Part shown: piece after piece, positions 27,353 to 48,386 of the stretch
Layout: the number at the start of each line of letters is the position of its first letter
Position numbering within the stretch: the first letter of the stretch is position 1
DNA from: Sphingorhabdus sp. EL138
GTDB taxonomy: Bacteria; Pseudomonadota; Alphaproteobacteria; Sphingomonadales; Sphingomonadaceae
Length of the DNA: 64,000 nt
NCBI RefSeq assembly: GCF_945882965.1
Contig: NZ_CAMCWY010000006.1
Coordinates: forward strand, 1-64,000
Reading direction: 5' to 3'
Translations under genes and position numbers: made by a program
Notes under the pieces: generated by a model
What the model saw: only the letters and a program-made list of their open reading frames with translations
Told to the model about the DNA's origin: nothing
Databases searched by the model: none

Positions 27353-29644
27353 TTAGTTGCGCAGCCGCTCAATGGCTTGTGCCAGCGCAACGTAAAGCTT
27401 GCCTATGTCCGACGACAGCAAGGTAACACCTATCGTGTTCCCATCGCGCGTGCTGAGCAACAGGCGCATGATGCCCTCAAAATCATGAACGTAACGGTTT
27501 ACATGTTCGCGAAATTCGCTGTCATCGCCATAATGTTTGGCGATGATCCTTGCCTCACGTGAATCCAACAAGCGAACGGCGCGACGCGTAAACACGCCTC
27601 TGTCGCCCTTCAAATAGGCTGCCCAAGCGTTATCTGTCACGTCGTTGGACAATATTTTGGTAACGTCGATAGCGGTCGAATTCAAAGATTCGGTCAAAAG
27701 CACCATACGGCGGGCAAAGCTGTCGTCTTGGACTGATTCAAAGCCATTTATCGAATTTGCGATACGGTTTTCAAGGCTGATCGTCATGTCGTTGAGTTCG
27801 CCGAGTTGTTTGGTTACCAAGGATGAGGCGGTTTCCGACAATTCAATATTGCGCGATATGGCTTCCTGCACAGCTTCATTCATCGACGCGACCTGCGCAT
27901 CCAGTGCATTGGCCAATGCCGCGCGATTTTGTTCGGTCAACTGATCGGCGATATGCGCCAGTTCCTCGTCGAGGATCTTGCGGCTGCTTTCTGCGGCAGC
28001 GCGCGTTGTTTCACGCACGCGGAGCAAAGATGTCACTAAGCCGTCATTTGCTTGATCCGACATGTCCTGTAGCAGCGACTGTGTTTGCTTGAGCGCAGCG
28101 CCGAGGGCATCCACTTGTTCATGACGTGCGGCAAAATGTGCATCGCTCTGGGCTATCAGCGCGCTAACAGATTCATGTTGCGCGGAAGTTAATCGCTGAA
28201 TGTCGTTGAGCTTTTCAAGCGTTCCGTCGCTTATATTGTTGAGCGATTCTGCCGCAGCGAGCGCTGAGTTCACTTGCTCTATGCCTTGTGTCATGCGCGC
28301 GTTCACGCTGTCCATCGCGGCGGGAATCTTATGACCTATTTCCAGATTGGCTGTGCTGAGTGATCCAATCAACTTTTCCGATTGGTCCAATAAGCTGGCT
28401 GTGGTTGATTGGTTGTCGGACAAAGCGCTACCCAGTGAACGGCTGCTTTCGCCAAGCGCCGATACGGCAAAGGCGAGTTTTGACGTCTGCTCAGTGGCTG
28501 TGCGGTCAATCTGTGAAATCTGCGCGGCGCTGTTGTGAATATGTTCGCTAATATTCGCGATCATGGCCTGAATGCGGACATCTTCCCGGTCAGATTGGGC
28601 TTCAATGTCACCCAAAGCGCGACGGAGGTTAGCAAGGTTAGACAGGATTTGCGTTTTGCTGCGGGTAATGAGGGCATCGGTATCGCTTGACGCCTGCGCA
28701 ATGCCGTTGGAAATCGTTTGTGCGGCGCTTTCCATAAGCGTGGCCATTTCGGCGCTACGGTCGAGCGCTTCTGCACTTTTTGCGTCGAGCAGCTTCACAC
28801 TATTACCCAGCGATTGCTCTAGCCGGTTGGACAAGTCATCTCCGCGCGTTTCGACATTCTCCATATAGTCATTTACTGTTTTACCCGCATCGCTTACGCG
28901 CTCAAGGGCAGCGATCAGCGCCTTAATCTGAACCTGCGCATCATTACCTGCGCTTCCGATCTGGTTGCTGACATCTTTGGCGGCGCTTGTCACAACGGGC
29001 AAATGTTTGCGGAGTTGCTGCAAATTTGTATTGGCGGTGTTGCTCACCAATTCCAGCGTCTTTGCCTTTTCATCGCTATCCGCAAGCGCAGCCGACAACA
29101 TTTGCGCAGAATCCAATAGGCTTTTGGAAGATTGGCGACCCACTGTTTCCAGTTCACGCGCATTTTGGGACAGAAATTGGCGCGCGAGCGATATTTCTTC
29201 GTTCACTGACCGCATCCGTATTGCCAATGCGTCGCTCTCTGTCCGCAACACATTCGCTATCTTGCCAAAGCGTAAGGCCTCTCGGATACTGTTACGCATG
29301 ACCAGCAGCCACAGGACAGCAATTAAAAGCGTAGGAATGGCCCAGGTCGTGATTAGCGTTACAATCCGGTCATTGTTCATACCGAGTTGAGCCTCAGACC
29401 AATATGTCAGGCCAAAAAACGCCGACCACCCGACAAACGCGATCAACAGCAGGGTTGGGGCAACATAATGCCCGGCACCCCGATATTGGGAAGTTTCACC
29501 GGTCCCATGATCATAATTATACTGTGGTGCTTGATCATCTTCAGCAGCGCCTTGGGCATTGCTGTCGACATCCTGCGAAGCAGTTTCGTGTTCGGTTTTA
29601 GCGATTTCGCGGTTCAGGCCGACGATTTTGGAGCGTGTAGTCAT
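27353..29644 (-). CDS. Two-TM membrane-anchored coiled-coil protein (unrecognised)
   Basis: 763-aa protein. Residues 1-58 are polar and acidic (low complexity, HETASQDVDSNAQGAAEDDQ). Two TM helices follow at about 60-82 and 91-114, then some 530 residues of Ala/Ser/Gln/Leu-rich helix with heptad character and no catalytic motif. The last about 100 residues (from DNAWAAYLKGDRGVFTRRAV to GKLYVALAQAIERLRN) look like a compact, better conserved domain. N-terminal two-TM plus long coiled coil is the layout of polarity and scaffold proteins such as Caulobacter TipN, but I see no sequence proof of homology. Divergent from the next gene. Confidence 0.8.
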   Translation of the reverse strand: MTTRSKIVGLNREIAKTEHETASQDVDSNAQGAAEDDQAPQYNYDHGTGETSQYRGAGHYVAPTLLLIAFVGWSAFFGLTYWSEAQLGMNNDRIVTLITTWAIPTLLIAVLWLLVMRNSIREALRFGKIANVLRTESDALAIRMRSVNEEISLARQFLSQNARELETVGRQSSKSLLDSAQMLSAALADSDEKAKTLELVSNTANTNLQQLRKHLPVVTSAAKDVSNQIGSAGNDAQVQIKALIAALERVSDAGKTVNDYMENVETRGDDLSNRLEQSLGNSVKLLDAKSAEALDRSAEMATLMESAAQTISNGIAQASSDTDALITRSKTQILSNLANLRRALGDIEAQSDREDVRIQAMIANISEHIHNSAAQISQIDRTATEQTSKLAFAVSALGESSRSLGSALSDNQSTTASLLDQSEKLIGSLSTANLEIGHKIPAAMDSVNARMTQGIEQVNSALAAAESLNNISDGTLEKLNDIQRLTSAQHESVSALIAQSDAHFAARHEQVDALGAALKQTQSLLQDMSDQANDGLVTSLLRVRETTRAAAESSRKILDEELAHIADQLTEQNRAALANALDAQVASMNEAVQEAISRNIELSETASSLVTKQLGELNDMTISLENRIANSINGFESVQDDSFARRMVLLTESLNSTAIDVTKILSNDVTDNAWAAYLKGDRGVFTRRAVRLLDSREARIIAKHYGDDSEFREHVNRYVHDFEGIMRLLLSTRDGNTIGVTLLSSDIGKLYVALAQAIERLRN

Positions 29645-29849
29645 GAAGCCCTATTTAACACATTATTCGGTAAGAGAAACGCAAACTTATCATAGCACGG
29701 AAAGGGTTATTAAACGGCTTAGGATTAAGGCGTATTTGGCCCTGATCATGGAAAAATGATTAGCGCAATTGAGTGCTTTAGCGTTCATATCTCGGCAGGT
29801 ACCTCATATTTCTGTTGGCAAAACGGCCTTAACGTTCATATCTGCCAAA

Positions 29850-31073
29850 ATGCCTCTCGTTCGAAATCCGAATTTCCCGACAATCGCTTTGCTTTGCGTC
29901 GTCTGCGATAATGACAGTGGACCTGATTCGGCCACCATATCCGGGCGTCCGGACTTGGCAGGCCTATCCTTGGTTGAATATCAGATAACGACGTTAGCGC
30001 GTGCCGGTATTCAAAGGTTCCTGATTGAAGTCGAAAATGTCGACGGTTCGTTAATCGCGCTGGCCGACCGTTGCGCTTCGCGAAAACTGACGGTCGATTT
30101 TGTCCAAACGGGCGCGGATATCATGCGTTACATGGACGCCGACGATCGCATATGGGTGCAATCCGGACAGTTATATGTGCAATTAGGACTCGTTGAAACA
30201 CTTCTCAAATCTCCCGACAATTTCATCGCAACAATTGATGGCCGGGACGAAAATCGGGCGTTTGAACGTATTGATTTAAACACGCGGTGGGTTGGTGTCT
30301 CGGTTGTTGGATATGAAGCTATCGCGATGCTGCGTGACCTGCCCGAAGACTGGAGCATTATATCATCCCTGCTGCGGCAGGCGTTGCTGGCGAAAATTCC
30401 CTTCCGCCCGCTGTCTCAACAGCATGTTCATAATGGCACGCTGACCATCCTAACGGGCGCGCAGGATTTTTCGCAGCTCAATCGCCAGATACTGCGGCGA
30501 CGGGTTGCCAGCAGGGCAGGGTATATTGAGGCACAGTTGTTCGGGCCAATCCTTGCCCGTCTTGTTCCGCTTATCTGGCAAAGCCCAACAGCGGTAACCG
30601 CGACTAAATTCGCCGCCCCTGTCATTGCTTTAGCGGCACTTGCTTTAGGGCTTGGAAATCTAGCCACAGCAGCAACTGTCGCGGCATTTCTATCCATCGC
30701 GGCAAACGCTTTAAGTCTGGCGGTGACAGATGATGCAGATGGCAGTGATCACATACAAAGCCTGTCAGTTGTCACTTGGACGCTGATCATACTGGCGATG
30801 TTCGGTAGCGCGTATGTTGCGACATCTTATCATAACAACGGCTTATTTGGCGCGTTTGCAGTGGCAACGCTCGCCTATCTTACCCATAAAATGGTGTTGC
30901 CTGGCTGGGCCAAGCAGCTGTTGCATTCACCTGCTGCTTTGGCCTCACTTGCTATAATTGGGGCCGTGACCATTGGAATAACGGCTATACTACAATGGAT
31001 TATGGTATTGCAGCTTAGCATCCTGATGATCGCAAGCATGATGCGTGACGCTGAAGGAAAAAAATCAAACTAA
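29850..31073 (+). CDS. Nucleotidyltransferase-like membrane protein (unrecognised)
   Basis: 407 aa from ATG 29850; an in-frame TTG at 29769 would add 27 residues. Residues 1-220 look like an NTP-transferase fold: GRPDLAGLSLVEYQITTLARAG resembles the G-x-P-L-x-EYQ segment, but the usual N-terminal GGxGTRL loop is absent. Residues 245-400 hold about six TM helices, with DDADGSD between helices. That resembles the start of the CDP-alcohol phosphotransferase motif (D-x2-D-G) without its Ala-Arg and distal Asp residues. It may therefore be a decayed or repurposed NTase/CDP-alcohol transferase fusion; function unknown. Confidence 0.7.
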   Translation: MPLVRNPNFPTIALLCVVCDNDSGPDSATISGRPDLAGLSLVEYQITTLARAGIQRFLIEVENVDGSLIALADRCASRKLTVDFVQTGADIMRYMDADDRIWVQSGQLYVQLGLVETLLKSPDNFIATIDGRDENRAFERIDLNTRWVGVSVVGYEAIAMLRDLPEDWSIISSLLRQALLAKIPFRPLSQQHVHNGTLTILTGAQDFSQLNRQILRRRVASRAGYIEAQLFGPILARLVPLIWQSPTAVTATKFAAPVIALAALALGLGNLATAATVAAFLSIAANALSLAVTDDADGSDHIQSLSVVTWTLIILAMFGSAYVATSYHNNGLFGAFAVATLAYLTHKMVLPGWAKQLLHSPAALASLAIIGAVTIGITAILQWIMVLQLSILMIASMMRDAEGKKSN

Positions 31074-31160: not shown

Positions 31161-32447
31161 TCAGCGCGCGTCTAAACTTGAGTAAGGACGGTGATTTGGT
31201 CCGGTATACAACTGACGCGGGCGGCCAATTTTCTGCGCCGGATCCGAAATCATTTCATTCCACTGGGCAACCCAGCCAACCGTGCGCGCCAGTGCGAATA
31301 ATACGGTGAACATATCGGTCGGGAAACCGATAGCCGAAAGCACTATCCCGGAATAAAAGTCCACGTTCGGGAACAGCTTCTTCTCAACGAAATAGGGGTC
31401 ATTCAACGCCATTTCTTCGAGTTGCAGCGCAACGTCAAAAATTGGATCGGTCACTTTTAGTTCGGTAAGAAGCTCACGTACCGTTCTCTGCATGACGGTC
31501 GCACGCGGGTCATAATTTTTGTAAACCCGATGGCCAAAGCCCATCAAGCGGAACGGGTCATTCTTGTCCTTTGCCCGTTCAATATAATGCGGGATGCGGT
31601 CAGGCGTGCCGATTTCGCGCAGCATGTTCAATGCAGCCTCGTTCGCGCCGCCATGGGCTGGGCCCCAGAGGCAGGCGATACCGGCCGCCATACAGGCGAA
31701 GGGATTCGCGCCTGATGATCCGGCCAAGCGCACAGTTGATGTAGATGCGTTTTGTTCGTGGTCGGCATGGAGGATAAATATCCGGTCCAACGCGCGTTCA
31801 ATCACAGGGTTCACAACATATTTTTCCGCTGGAACACCAAAGGTCATGCGCAGGAAATTGCCCGTGTAGGACAAGTTGTTGTCGGGATAGACAAAAGGCT
31901 GCCCTAAGGAGTATTTGTACGCCATGGCCGCGATTGTCGGCATTTTGGCGATCAAACGGTGGCTTGAAATCATTCGGTGTGTTGGGTCGCTAATATCGGT
32001 GGAGTCATGGTAAAACGCCGATAGCGCGCCAACTACGCCGCACATGATGGCCATGGGGTGTGCATCGCGGCGGAAACCACGGTAAAAAGTTGCCAATTGC
32101 TCATGCAGCATCGTGTGCCGCGAAATCGTGTAACTAAATTTGTCTAATTGCGCCTTGTTGGGGAGTTCGCCGTTCAACAGCAGATAGGACACTTCCATGA
32201 AGCTCGACTGTTCGGACAGCTCTTCAATGGAGTAACCCCTATGCAAAAGAATGCCCTTGTCACCATCAATAAAGGTCAGCGCAGACTCGCAGCTTGCCGT
32301 TGATGTAAAGCCAGGGTCAAAGGTGAAATGGTCCGATGCCCCATAAAGCTTGCGGATATCGATCACATCAGGGCCTTCTGAACCCTTCATGATGGGCAAG
32401 TCATAGCTGGTTTCGCCAACGGTGAGCGTTGCGTTGTTATCGGCCAT
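31161..32447 (-). CDS. gltA: Citrate synthase
   Basis: Condenses oxaloacetate and acetyl-CoA to enter the TCA cycle. The 428-aa protein is the hexameric bacterial type, with [25 protein letters not shown] near the N-terminus, the catalytic His regions [10 protein letters not shown] and [27 protein letters not shown], and the Asp-containing [11 protein letters not shown] 32447 is chosen over the TTG at 32453 because GGAG lies 7 bp upstream. No clear promoter was found in the 265 bp upstream, which otherwise holds only a short hairpin (CCTTTTTAAAAGG-like, near 32490). Confidence 0.97.
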
Positions 32448-32712
32448 TTTCAAACTCCATATCTACTAAGCTATTTACCGGGTTGCCCTTTTAAAAAGGC
32501 ATGTGTTTCAATGACACGGGACGCAAGAGACGCCCGTGACGACATTCTAAGACCCTTCAAGTGCCAATATTTCGTGGGGAGAATATGGTTATGTCGTTGC
32601 GTAGCCCCATGATAGGAAATTACATGGGCGTCAAGGCAAACAATGGATTGCGCTTCGCGGATGAATTGCGCTTTCGTTTTTTGGTGCTAAATAGCTGGGG
32701 TAGAAACGAAAT

Positions 32713-34815
32713 ATGGCAATTCGGTTGCGGACGGAAACGTGCGGTTCGGTGCGCCAATACCGCTGTTTGCGGTTCTCGAAAACTGGCTTGACCGCGAACG
32801 CGACCAATTACCCTTATGGCTGCCCGTTGGTATCGGATTCGGTGTCGCTTTTTGGCAGTTCTGCTTGGGCCGGATTGGCAATGTCATGCGCTTCCTTATT
32901 GTTTTTTGGGTATTTGGCGCCCCCATATAGCCGGTTGCGGCAAATGGCGCGGATGGCTGCTATTGAGATATTGCTGGTTTTTTCCTGATTGCCTTTCGGT
33001 CAACAACCGTTGCCCAGCCAGTTTTAGGCAAAATATGGACAGGCGAGTTTTACGGGCGGGTTGAAGCGGTTGAAAATACCTCCGCGCGCAATGTCTATCG
33101 GCTGCGGCTCGCCACTGGCCGTAGTTCCGACTTGCCGCGATTTGTCCGCGTCAACCTGTCACCGGAACAATATGACGACGCGTTCCAACCTGGCGCGATA
33201 ATTCGCCTGTGCGCGCGCCTGCTGCCGCCTGCTGGGCCAACCTTGCCCGGCGGGCATGGTTTCAACAGATTGGCGCGACCGGAACGGCTTTGGGCGATGT
33301 CCGGCTGTATCAAAAAGCAGACAGCAGGGCATGGTTCGCGACGCAGCGTGCAGCGCTGACAAAGCATATACTGGATCAATGCCCCTTGGCAACGGTGCCA
33401 TAGGCGCGGCGCTGGGCACCGGTGATCAGGGGCATATCAGCCCCGCCGATGCACAAGCCATGCGGGACAGTGGTTTGGCGCACCTTCTATCGATTAGCGG
33501 GCTGCATGTGACTGCGGTAGTCGGATTCATTTTCATCGCGGTCAGCCGCCTTTTATCGTTGTCTTCATGGCTTGCATTGCGGATTTCTATACCCATCGTT
33601 GCCGCAGCAACGGCGGCTTTAGCTGCGCTGGCGTATACGTTGTTAACGGGGGCCGAAGTACCAACGGTTCGATCGTTCATTGCCGCAGCTCTCATTTTGA
33701 TTGCGCTGGCGTTAGGGCGCGGGGCTCACGCTGCGACTGGTGGCATTTGGTGCATTAATCGTGCTGATATTCTGGCCCGAGGCCATATCTAAGCCGAGTT
33801 TTCAACTCAGCTTTGCGGCAGTTGCGACCATCGTCGTCCTGCATGATCTGCCGTTCATACGGCGGCTGACCGAAAGGCGCGACGAAAGCTTGGCGCGCAA
33901 GGCGGTGCGGGCGGTCGGGTCGCTCATCCTGACCGGCGTCGCCATTGAGCTTGTCCTTACCCCATCGCCCTGTTTCATTTCCACAAGGCAGGGCTTTATG
34001 GTACCTTGGCCAATGTGGCGGCGATCCCGATGGCAACGTTCATCATCATGCCGTTGGAGGCATTAGCGCTGATTTTTGACGTGATTGGCTTGGGGCAGCC
34101 ATTTTGGTGGCTGGCAGGGAAGGGCATCGCCGCGATTCTGGCGCTTGCCTATTCCGTCAGTGGCCTGCCCGGCGCGGTCACTATGGTCCCTGCAATACCC
34201 ACATGGGCCTTTGCAACTTTCGTCGCTGGAGCGTTGATATTTGGCTTGCTGACAACAGGCGTCCGCTATTTTGGTGTTCCGCTATGCGCGATTGGAATTA
34301 TCGCAATGGCCATGGCGCCACGCCCGGATATTCTGGTGACGGGAGATGGCAAGCATCTGGCCTTGGTCAGCGCAGACGGAGAAGTCGCGTTACTGCGCGG
34401 TAGGGCAGGTGATTTTGTACGCGGGATGATTTTTGAAAAAGCTGGAAGCTTTGCAAACGCAACGCCGATTGATGACTGGCCCGGCGTCCAATGCACGTTC
34501 GACAATTGCGTGATTACTGTGAAGTGGGCAGAGCGTTCTTGGACATTACTCGCCACCAGAACACGCACCCCCATAGCGTCCATGGAAATGGCCTCAGCGT
34601 GCAAACGCGTTGACATCGTATTGAGCGACCGATGGTTGCCGCAGTCATGCCGCCCAAAATGGATAAAGGCCGACCGCCGATTACTTGAACAAAGCGGCGG
34701 TCTGGCCTTTTATCTGGATGCACAACGCGTGGTTACCGCGCATGAGGGCAACCGCCATATGCCTTGGGTGCAGGCTGCCAATGCCGCGCGTGCGGCACAC
34801 GCATCAGATCAATGA
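32713..34815 (+). pseudogene. comEC: comEC/rec2 DNA-uptake channel, multiply frameshifted
   Basis: ComEC translocates single-stranded DNA across the inner membrane. Recognisable pieces lie in order but in changing frames: LENWLDRERDQLPLWLPV (from about 32770), stops at 32928 and 32964, then RVEAVENTSARNVYRLRLATGR (from 32985). Next are ARRAWFQQIGATGTALG (about 33246, new frame), LAHLLSISGLHVTAVVG (about 33475, new frame), FWPEAISKPSFQLSFAAVA (about 33770, new frame), and an intact C-terminal part from about 33962 (HFHKAGLYGTLANVAAIPMA). At least five lesions, one in a C-run near 33960. Neighbouring genes are intact, so this is likely true decay. It lies convergent to lexA, with ends overlapping by 7 bp. 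Confidence 0.88.
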
Positions 34816-35492
34816 TATCGGCGTAACAGCCCGGCCAGCTTACCCTGAACCTCAACCTCGTGTGGCGCATAATATTGCGGCTCATAACTGCCATTGGCGG
34901 GATCAAGACGGATTTGCTGACCTTCACGGCGCAGATATTTCAAAGTTGCTTCCTCGCCGCGCACCAAAGCCACCACAATTTCGCCATCGCGCGCCGTGTT
35001 TGCCTTACGGATCAGCGCGTAATCACCATCCAATATCCCCGCCTCAATCATCGAGTCACCGGACACCTCAAGCGCATAATGCTCACCTGCACCCAACAAT
35101 GCCATCGGCACCGACAATGAATTCTGACCTTCAAGTGCCTCAATCGGCACACCAGCCGCGATCTTACCGTGGAAGGGAATTTCCATGACATCATTGGCGG
35201 CAACAGGAATCTGAATTTGCGGTTTGGTTTCCTTCACAGGCGCAAAACGGGCCACATTGTTACTGCCCAGATTCCCGCCTTCGGGCAATTTCATTACTTC
35301 AAGCGCGCGCGCACGGTTGGCCAATCGCCGAATAAAGCCGCGTTCCTCCAACGCGCCAATCAAACGGTGCACCCCGGATTTACTCTTCAGATCAAGCGCC
35401 TCTTTCATTTCCTCAAACGAAGGGGAAATGCCGCTTTCATCCAATCGTTGGTTAATGAATATAAGCAATTCGTGCTGTTTTGCCGTGAGCAT
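34809..35492 (-). CDS. lexA: LexA SOS repressor
   Basis: Transcriptional repressor of the SOS regulon that cleaves itself when RecA is activated. The 227-aa protein has an N-terminal winged helix ([17 protein letters not shown] to [15 protein letters not shown]), an Ala-Gly cleavage site in [11 protein letters not shown], the catalytic Ser in [11 protein letters not shown] and the Lys in [18 protein letters not shown] precedes the ATG. The promoter carries tandem SOS boxes, so the gene is autoregulated. It follows moeA on the same strand but has its own promoter. Confidence 0.97.
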
Positions 35493-46183: not shown

Positions 46184-46669
46184 TTAAGCGGCGCGCGGCC
46201 CCTTTTTCTTGGGCGCGTCATCATGTTCAATGACCGTTGGCGTTGTTTTTGCGCCAATCGCAATTTTGCGGGGTTTCAACGCTTCGGGCACTTCACGTAA
46301 TAGGGTGATAATCAAAAGACCGTCGGCCATGTCGGCATCGATCACATGAATGTGATCGGCCAATTGAAACCGGCGTTCAAAGTTCCGGGTTGCAATGCCC
46401 ATATGCAGAAAATCCCGATTATCGTTGCTTTCGCTCTGCTTGCTGCCAGTCACAATCAACAAATTCTGCTGCGCAATTATGTCGATCTCATCGATCTTAA
46501 ATCCGGCAACGGCGACGGTGATTTTATAGTCATTCTCACCCGTGCGTTCAATATTGAACGGTGGGTAATTCTCATTTTGCGCGGCACGGCCCGTGGTTTC
46601 GAGCAGCTCGAAAAGGCGGTCAAAGCCAACGGTGCTGCGGCGATAGGGTGTAAAATCAAAACGCGTCAT
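46184..46669 (-). CDS. Small heat shock protein, Hsp20/IbpA type
   Basis: ATP-independent holdase that binds unfolding proteins. The 161-aa protein has a short N-terminal region (TRFDFTPYRRSTVGFDRLFELL, IbpA-like), an alpha-crystallin domain (YPPFNIERTGENDYKITVAVAGF to IDADMADGLLIITLLREVPE), and a short basic tail. ATG 46669 is chosen because AGGAG lies 8 bp upstream and that site belongs to a ROSE-like hairpin. The promoter looks RpoH-dependent. Confidence 0.94.
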   Translation of the reverse strand: MTRFDFTPYRRSTVGFDRLFELLETTGRAAQNENYPPFNIERTGENDYKITVAVAGFKIDEIDIIAQQNLLIVTGSKQSESNDNRDFLHMGIATRNFERRFQLADHIHVIDADMADGLLIITLLREVPEALKPRKIAIGAKTTPTVIEHDDAPKKKGPRAA

Positions 46670-46757
46670 TACAAATTCTCCTTCAAGCAATTTGGTTCTT
46701 CGCTAACCCCGCTATTGCAGCGGCCAGCATTCTCGTTTTGGAGCCCTGCGGCCTCCG
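46670..46757 (-). promoter_or_regulatory. ROSE-like RNA thermometer in the hsp20 leader
   Basis: The predicted 88-nt 5' leader ends in a hairpin (46673-46693) where the anti-SD UUGCU pairs with AGGA, leaving the middle G bulged or in a G-G pair, with AAA/UUU outside. This is the hallmark 3' hairpin of ROSE elements, which mask the ribosome site at low temperature and melt on heat shock. A GC-rich upstream hairpin (CCGCTGC...GCGGGG region, around 46705-46725) could be the stabilising first stem. Confidence 0.72.
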
Positions 46758-46764
46758 CTGTGGA

Positions 46765-46792
46765 AGATGGGTTGTGTCCAAAAAATTGCAAG
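46765..46792 (-). promoter_or_regulatory. RpoH (sigma-32) type promoter of hsp20
   Basis: On the minus strand, CTTGCAA (46792-46786) and CCCATCT (46771-46765) are 14 bp apart, a near-exact match to the heat-shock sigma consensus (CTTGAA, 13-14 bp, CCCATnT). The expected start near 46757 gives an 88-nt leader. Confidence 0.8.
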
Positions 46793-46836
46793 GCCAAAAA
46801 ATCATGGCAAAACATCGTCCGCAACATTGACCACAG

Positions 46837-47085: not shown

Positions 47086-47135
47086 GACGGAACCTAAGAA
47101 CAGTCTATGCCGAAATTATGGATGAATGGCCGCAC

Positions 47136-48386
47136 ATGATATTGTCGCGATATGAACGCATGGTCGCACGCCGCTATCTGCTTCCGGGTAAGGGCGAGGG
47201 CTTTATCTTTTTAGTCGCCAGCATCAGCCTGGTTGCGGTTGCCTTGGGTGTTGCGGCGTTGATTATTGTCATGAGCGTCATGAACGGTTTTCGGGCCGAA
47301 TTATTTGATAAGATCGTTGGCCTCAATGGCCATGCCGTCATTCAGGGCTATGGCGGTCGCTTGCAAGATTGGCATCAAATCCTTAACGACGTGAAGCAGA
47401 CCGACGGCGTTACCGAAGCAACGCCGTTGATAGAGCAACCTTTGCTGACGACCTTCAATGGCCGGGTTGAGGCGATTTTGGCGCGCGGCATGTCCGTGAA
47501 TGATATCCTGAAAAACGACACGTTGAACGGAAAGACTGTCGCTGGCGATTTACGCCGGCTAAACGTCAATGAAGACAAGGTTGCGATTGGTTCGCGGCTT
47601 GCCCAAAATCTTGGGGTTCAGGTCGGGCAGAATGTCACGATTATCAATCCAGCCGGTCGCACCACGCCATTTGGCACCGTACCGCGTGAGATATCCTATG
47701 AGGTAGCCGCGATCTTTGAGGTCGGCGTGTATGATTATGATAAGGCGTTTGTTATCATGCCCATCGAGCGCGCCCAAATACTGATGTTGATGGGTGATGA
47801 AATCGGCATGATCGAGATTAAGACCGAAAACCCGGACAAAGTGAACGAGATACTCATGCCCTTATTGCCTAAGCTTGAGAATAAGGGGCAGATTGTCGAT
47901 TGGAAAAGCATGAATGCGTCCTTGTTTGAGGCTTTGGCGGTCGAGCGTGTCGCGATGTTTGTCGTGCTGTCGATCATCGTGTTGGTTGCGGTGTTCAACA
48001 TCTTGTCGTCACTCATCATGCTGGTGCGCGCCAAAACCCGCGACATTGCCATATTGCGCACCATGGGCGCGTCGCGAAAATCGCTGCTGAAGATTTTCAT
48101 GACGGTCGGCTTGCTGATTGGTGCATCCGGAATTGTATTGGGCATGATATTGGGCGCGATATTCCTTTATTTCCGGCAATCGGTCGTGAACTTCATTCAA
48201 TTTGTCACTGGACAAAATTTGTGGGACCCATCGATCCGGTTCCTGACCGAGCTGCCGTCGCGCACTGACCCGTTTGAAGTGCTGGCGATTTGCGGGCTGG
48301 CGTTGCTGTTCAGCTTCCTTGCAACCTTGTACCCGGCGCTAAAGGCGGCAAGTACGGACCCAGTTCAGGTGCTGCGTTATGAATAA
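47136..48386 (+). CDS. lolC: Lipoprotein-releasing ABC transporter permease (LolC/E)
   Basis: Inner-membrane permease that extracts lipoproteins for transfer to LolA. The 416-aa protein has one N-terminal TM helix ([23 protein letters not shown]), a large periplasmic MacB-like domain, and three C-terminal TM helices ([23 protein letters not shown], ...[43 protein letters not shown]). ATG 47136 ([16 protein letters not shown]) matches family starts; ATG 47118 is possible. A single permease gene with lolD suggests a homodimeric (LolF-like) arrangement. Confidence 0.93.

Follow-up and report, generated by a model that had tools for sequence, protein, structure and literature searches.

The 64,000-nucleotide window, that is, the whole stretch of DNA analysed here, contains a comEC pseudogene (32691–34815, + strand) located between an intact gltA gene (31161–32453, − strand) and an intact, convergent lexA gene (34809–35492, − strand). 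The pseudogene was delimited by alignment with 12 relatives, by codon alignment with seven relatives and by its PF03772 (Competence) pieces. The gltA-comEC-lexA locus is conserved, and the broken gene is the comEC of this locus.

To judge the intactness of the surrounding genes, 70 non-overlapping ORFs in the matching 80 kb of a related genome (G027) were used as the reference. Among them, 54/70 have a counterpart in the window and 16/70 do not, as the 80 kb partly extends past the window. The counterparts are plainly intact in 48 cases and were flagged in six. In comEC, stops and frame changes occur along the whole gene. In three other flagged ORFs, stops or an unmatched stretch are confined to residues 1–42 of the G027 ORF; the stop in the flagged lexA lies at residue 11 of an ORF that is too long, and the sixth is cut by the window end. 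We attribute these five flags to start-site choice or to the window edge, less surely so for the ORF at 46187–46801, where the stops at residues 39 and 42 of 214 may reflect a short N-terminal loss. Thus, comEC is the only clearly broken gene among the 54 counterparts. For the two long ORFs near gltA, at 27353–29644 (−) and 29769–31073 (+), Pfam gave nothing at 0.001, and the matches in PADLOC, NCBIfam and PHROGs were all weak.

Structure of the comEC pseudogene

The homologous frame of comEC begins near 32691, directly after a TAA at 32688, and ends with a tail stop at 34813–34815; the ATG at 32713 belongs to a different frame. The alignment with 12 relatives revealed six deletions of 11, 1, 19, 1, 2 and 1 bp, located at 32848, 32974, 33253, 33374, 33721 and 33960, respectively, none of which was found in any of the relatives aligned. 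The initial annotation had described ordered comEC pieces in several frames between intact gltA and lexA and had called the gene a pseudogene, and both statements are borne out by this comparison. Its list of lesions was right about the multiple frame changes, but missed the deletions at 32848 and 32974 and included two stops, at 32928 and 32964, that are not mutations. No in-frame stop codon was found in the homologous frame in the codon alignment with seven relatives, and the two apparent stops arise because the first frame was read on beyond the 11-bp deletion.

The deletions divide the gene into seven pieces, all on the + strand. The N-terminal piece (32691–32848), up to the 11-bp deletion, has no Pfam match alone, and the second (32849–32974), up to the first 1-bp deletion, was assigned by alignment. 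The third (32975–33253), the largest N-terminal piece, extends to the 19-bp deletion and gives a sub-cut-off match to DUF4131 (28 bits vs the cut-off of 31.6). The fourth (33254–33374), again assigned by alignment, ends at the second 1-bp deletion. The fifth (33375–33721), identified by Pfam and alignment, covers positions 1–103 of the Competence domain up to the 2-bp deletion, the sixth (33722–33960) covers positions about 99–162 up to the last 1-bp deletion, and the C-terminal piece (33961–34815) covers positions 168–266 and the tail. PF03772 scores over the cut-off in three of the pieces. In the intact orthologue of G040, DUF4131 and the Competence domain lie in one 719-codon frame, a combination described as a main ComEC layout in Alphaproteobacteria (PMC6299819). 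Within the C-terminal piece, the ORF at 34006–34815 is open over 269 codons, in line with the intact C-terminal third described in the initial annotation.

The six frame-breaking deletions leave no single open frame able to make the ComEC channel. When a second, intact comEC was sought with PF03772 in the source genome (2.36 Mb, 38 contigs, 99.85% complete), none was found, and only the three pieces of the one copy matched. Programmed frameshifting was rejected, since two of the changes are deletions of 11 and 19 bp that the relatives lack.

Direct repeats mark the sites of both larger deletions. In G021 and G027, a 13-bp repeat with a spacing of 19 bp is present at the site of the 19-bp deletion, and at the site of the 11-bp deletion an 8-bp repeat with a spacing of 11 bp can be read in G040 and G026. 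Both deletions may have arisen via slippage between the repeats. These features, atypical of read errors, speak against the rival view that comEC is intact and is obscured by sequencing or assembly error, or by a consensus of mixed strains. Such an error would be compatible with the 38-contig assembly, with the three 1-bp lesions, one of which sits in a C-run, with the low dN/dS that comEC keeps on the source branch, and with the frame breaks in control genes of two other genus assemblies, G008 and G018 (see below). However, the six lesions are concentrated in 2.1 kb, the remaining genes of the window being open, and a second gene of the pathway, comM, is truncated independently. We consider the error explanation improbable, and the original assessment that random sequencing error is unlikely is supported, given the open window genes and the repeat-flanked larger deletions.

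As judged from these lesions in the sequence, comEC is very probably a genuine, recent pseudogene. ComEC takes single-stranded DNA to the cytoplasm, where DprA and ComM then act, as described for this pathway (PMC11472951). Given this known role, DNA import is predicted to stop without comEC, and the inner-membrane import of single-stranded DNA by the ComEC route would have been lost.

Selection on comEC, comM and dprA in the source genome

Selection was estimated with a two-ratio codon model on eight taxa, the source and seven relatives. For comEC, the dN/dS was 0.155 in the relatives vs 0.213 on the source branch (p=0.11), with neutrality rejected. The value of 0.155 indicates that comEC is kept in the relatives. 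As the relaxation on the source branch is not significant, it is the lesions that point to a lapse of selection. By simple mixing, we infer that the inactivation took place within roughly the last tenth of the branch.

The signal differs along the gene. From 33966 onward, the branch dN/dS was 0.320 vs 0.156 (p=0.03), and neutrality was still rejected (p=7.6e-4); in the upstream part, it was 0.174 vs 0.150 (p=0.57). The rejection of neutrality from 33966, together with the 269 open codons, could be taken to mean that the C-terminal part alone (34006–34815) is retained as a shorter functional protein. Yet the branch dN/dS is raised more strongly in this part than upstream, and G002 has lost most of the C-terminal tail of comEC to a stop at residue 595 of 713, so that we regard a retained short protein as highly improbable, even more so than an error in the assembly.

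In the source genome (G000), comM, which the initial annotation does not mention, is the second broken gene of the pathway. Its first 283 codons are gone and codons 284–502 are kept (contig C35, L080:5114–5773, outside the window). The remnant is flanked by intact GST and S1 genes and lies away from the contig ends. The branch dN/dS of comM was 0.279 vs 0.076 (p=0.0018). Among the control genes, dnaE, gltA (four taxa only) and ppiD were also raised on the source branch, whereas lexA, moeA, trpE and the ORF at 47118–48386 were not. Since 3/7 control genes are raised too, the excess in comM may be partly lineage-wide. A loss of dprA had been suggested as a check, but this gene, which lies on the same contig at a distance of about 38 kb, is intact, with 364 open codons, and its branch dN/dS (0.143 vs 0.115, p=0.54) gives no clear sign of relaxation. 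The order of events would then be that comM was lost before comEC, and dprA has not yet been lost.

The loss of type IV pilus genes had also been suggested as a check. PilT above the cut-off is indeed missing from the source genome, but it is equally missing from all the genus genomes (0/45), whether comEC is intact or not, and is therefore uninformative about the source genome. The strong PilT-family match of G000 was rejected as PilT, as it belongs to a GspC-to-GspL type II secretion operon (contig C10, L096). The single gene transfer agent (GTA) marker used, PF13547, was likewise found in 0/45 genus genomes; in the control, Caulobacter alone matched, among the matches listed. A GTA-recipient role for comEC, comM and dprA is without support from this one marker.

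Recurrence across the genus and the family

Across the genus sample of 45 genomes, comEC is broken in 8 of the 44 testable genomes (G000, G002, G011, G020, G024, G030, G032 and G036), comM in 9/43 (G000, G011, G012, G014, G018, G020, G030, G032 and G036) and dprA in 4/43 (G011, G015, G032 and G036). The broken cases were checked at the gltA-comEC-lexA, GST-comM-S1 and plsY-dprA-topA loci, with neighbours missing from some of the stretches checked (comM of G018 and G020), and in most of the other genomes comM and dprA were judged by search-table coverage and an open frame. G008 (78% complete, lacking comEC in the loci examined) was set aside for all three genes, as were comM of G001, split over two contigs, where an insertion could be hidden, and dprA of G030, at a contig end. 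The comEC of G019, cut by a contig end, was counted as open. Two further cases were kept outside the main counts: comEC of G039, which has a stop at codon 30, is open afterwards and is probably broken, and comM of G035, which has a frame change in the last 30 codons.

The genes are mostly broken by differing lesions, and the losses lie on the tips of the FastTree tree. G032 and G036 lie in one clade with an internal support near 0.75, and their comEC losses may be one event, giving a total of seven or eight comEC losses. In comM of G012 (L083), two bases have been inserted in a run of nine Gs around codon 208; a poly-G hotspot was rejected, as this run is absent from most of the comM copies compared. 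Genome size was not significantly smaller in the eight genomes with broken comEC (p=0.34).

As a control for frame breaks, 483 complete gene-genome pairs were scored, with 43 more, cut by locus or contig ends, left out. The 28/483 flagged pairs comprise 23 of moaC and ORF 48379, two of trpG and three clear frame breaks. The stops in the former lie near the gene ends (residue 11 of 168 in moaC, 224 of 227 in ORF 48379 and 195 of 199 in trpG). The clear breaks affect pyrG and the ORF-47118 homologue in G008 (L148) and dnaE in G018 (L143), which suggests that these two are error-prone assemblies. The breakage of comM in G018 is accordingly doubtful.

Losses of comEC and comM coincide. In 43 genomes, both genes are broken in six, comEC only in two, comM only in three and neither in 32 (Fisher p=3.3e-4; weaker, at p=0.013, with the losses placed by branch length). 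Adding G039 and G035 changed the counts to 6, 3, 4 and 30 (Fisher 2.2e-3; 0.053 under the branch-length null), leaving out G018 gave a Fisher p=1.4e-4, and leaving out G036 left five shared cases (p=1.2e-3). The corresponding counts were 3, 4, 1 and 35 for comEC with dprA (p=0.011; not significant under the branch-length null, 0.077), and 3, 5, 1 and 33 for comM with dprA (p=0.018; branch-length null 0.12).

Of 297 genomes sampled from the family, five lack PF03772 and six more have it split or weak, among the matches listed, and full-length matches holding a TAG occur in at least two genomes (G047 and G172), among the matches listed. At ≥95% completeness, the genus had 5/35, compared with 10/289 for the family's remaining genera (p=0.015). 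ComM falls below the cut-off in 45/297 genomes; many of these copies share a best E-value close to 1e-97, a pattern that would fit breakage at a single site around the Walker A region. The best-ranked named matches to ComM come from Sphingopyxis, Sphingobium, Novosphingobium and Sphingomonas, which suggests that the source is a sphingomonad. Five of the 11 PF03772-deficient genomes, among the matches listed, are low for ComM (p=0.015; p=0.067 without four fragmented assemblies). In one locus, L245 (Sphingopyxis sp. GW247-27LB), comM matches from codon 212 onward only, and the ORF just upstream resembles, by eye, what we take to be an IS21 helper ATPase.

Decay of the DNA-import pathway and comparison with known systems

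Our preferred reading, to which we give a probability of roughly 0.85, is that a recent inactivation of comEC is being followed by decay through small deletions, owing to a lapse of selection for DNA import in the lineage. The rival in which import was instead dropped under active selection, for instance through a cost of foreign DNA or a conflict with mobile elements, could draw on the coincidence of comEC and comM breakage (the six shared cases of 43, p=3.3e-4) and on reports that mobile elements interrupt comM in Acinetobacter (PMC11472951) and comEC in Piscirickettsia (PMC12955456). Relaxation accounts for the same association, however, and the lesions observed are deletions, frame changes and stops. 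No transposase or integrase was found among the ORFs in the gaps at the decayed loci (eight ORFs searched with Pfam, five also with PHROGs); these ORFs were HU-like, DUF4440, AHSA1, Competence or without a Pfam match. Active selection is thus very improbable, slightly more so than an assembly error.

Beyond the source genome, it is possible, though we propose it only tentatively, that this genus is losing the DNA-import pathway in many parallel, stepwise events, with comM or comEC first and dprA later, by plain deletion decay and with neither a GTA nor PilT detected. If true, the genus would supply natural replicates in which to ask what maintains selection for DNA uptake. A comparative test of this question would be possible, as comEC would have been lost seven or eight times at a single conserved locus, with intact sister species. 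The overlap of the comEC and comM losses suggests that both serve one pathway here, though no GTA marker or PilT was found. Within the partial coverage of the literature available, judged in part by title, we found no published loss of comEC or transformation in Sphingomonadaceae, Sphingomonadales or Sphingorhabdus, and the relevant passages of PMC8116508 report no loss.

The gene set corresponds to that described for GTA recipients in Alphaproteobacteria, namely comEC, comF, comM and dprA (PMC10883770), from which the present case differs in that PF13547, the one marker used, matched none of the 45 genus genomes. In Acinetobacter baumannii, as here, comM is reported to be broken in a sizeable share of genomes, 22% of strains there and 9/43 genomes here. 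There, the breakage is mostly within that one species and by mobile elements, with comEC loss being rare (PMC11472951). Here, the affected genomes belong to different species, the cases examined show deletions, frame changes or a stop, and comEC is often broken as well. The comEC pseudogenes described in Piscirickettsia salmonis (PMC12955456) resemble ours in that a single comEC is broken and dprA is intact, but there transposable elements interrupt comEC and comM is intact, whereas here the lesions are small deletions and comM is truncated. Three Pasteurellaceae species (PMC1626085) are described as combining, as here, an ancestral pathway with recent lineage-specific defects; they belong to another bacterial class and have a known uptake system, while here no PilT scores over the cut-off. 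As competence-gene loss is reported as established in these other groups (PMC1626085, PMC12955456), the decay of comEC described here adds a case to a type of gene loss that is already recognised.
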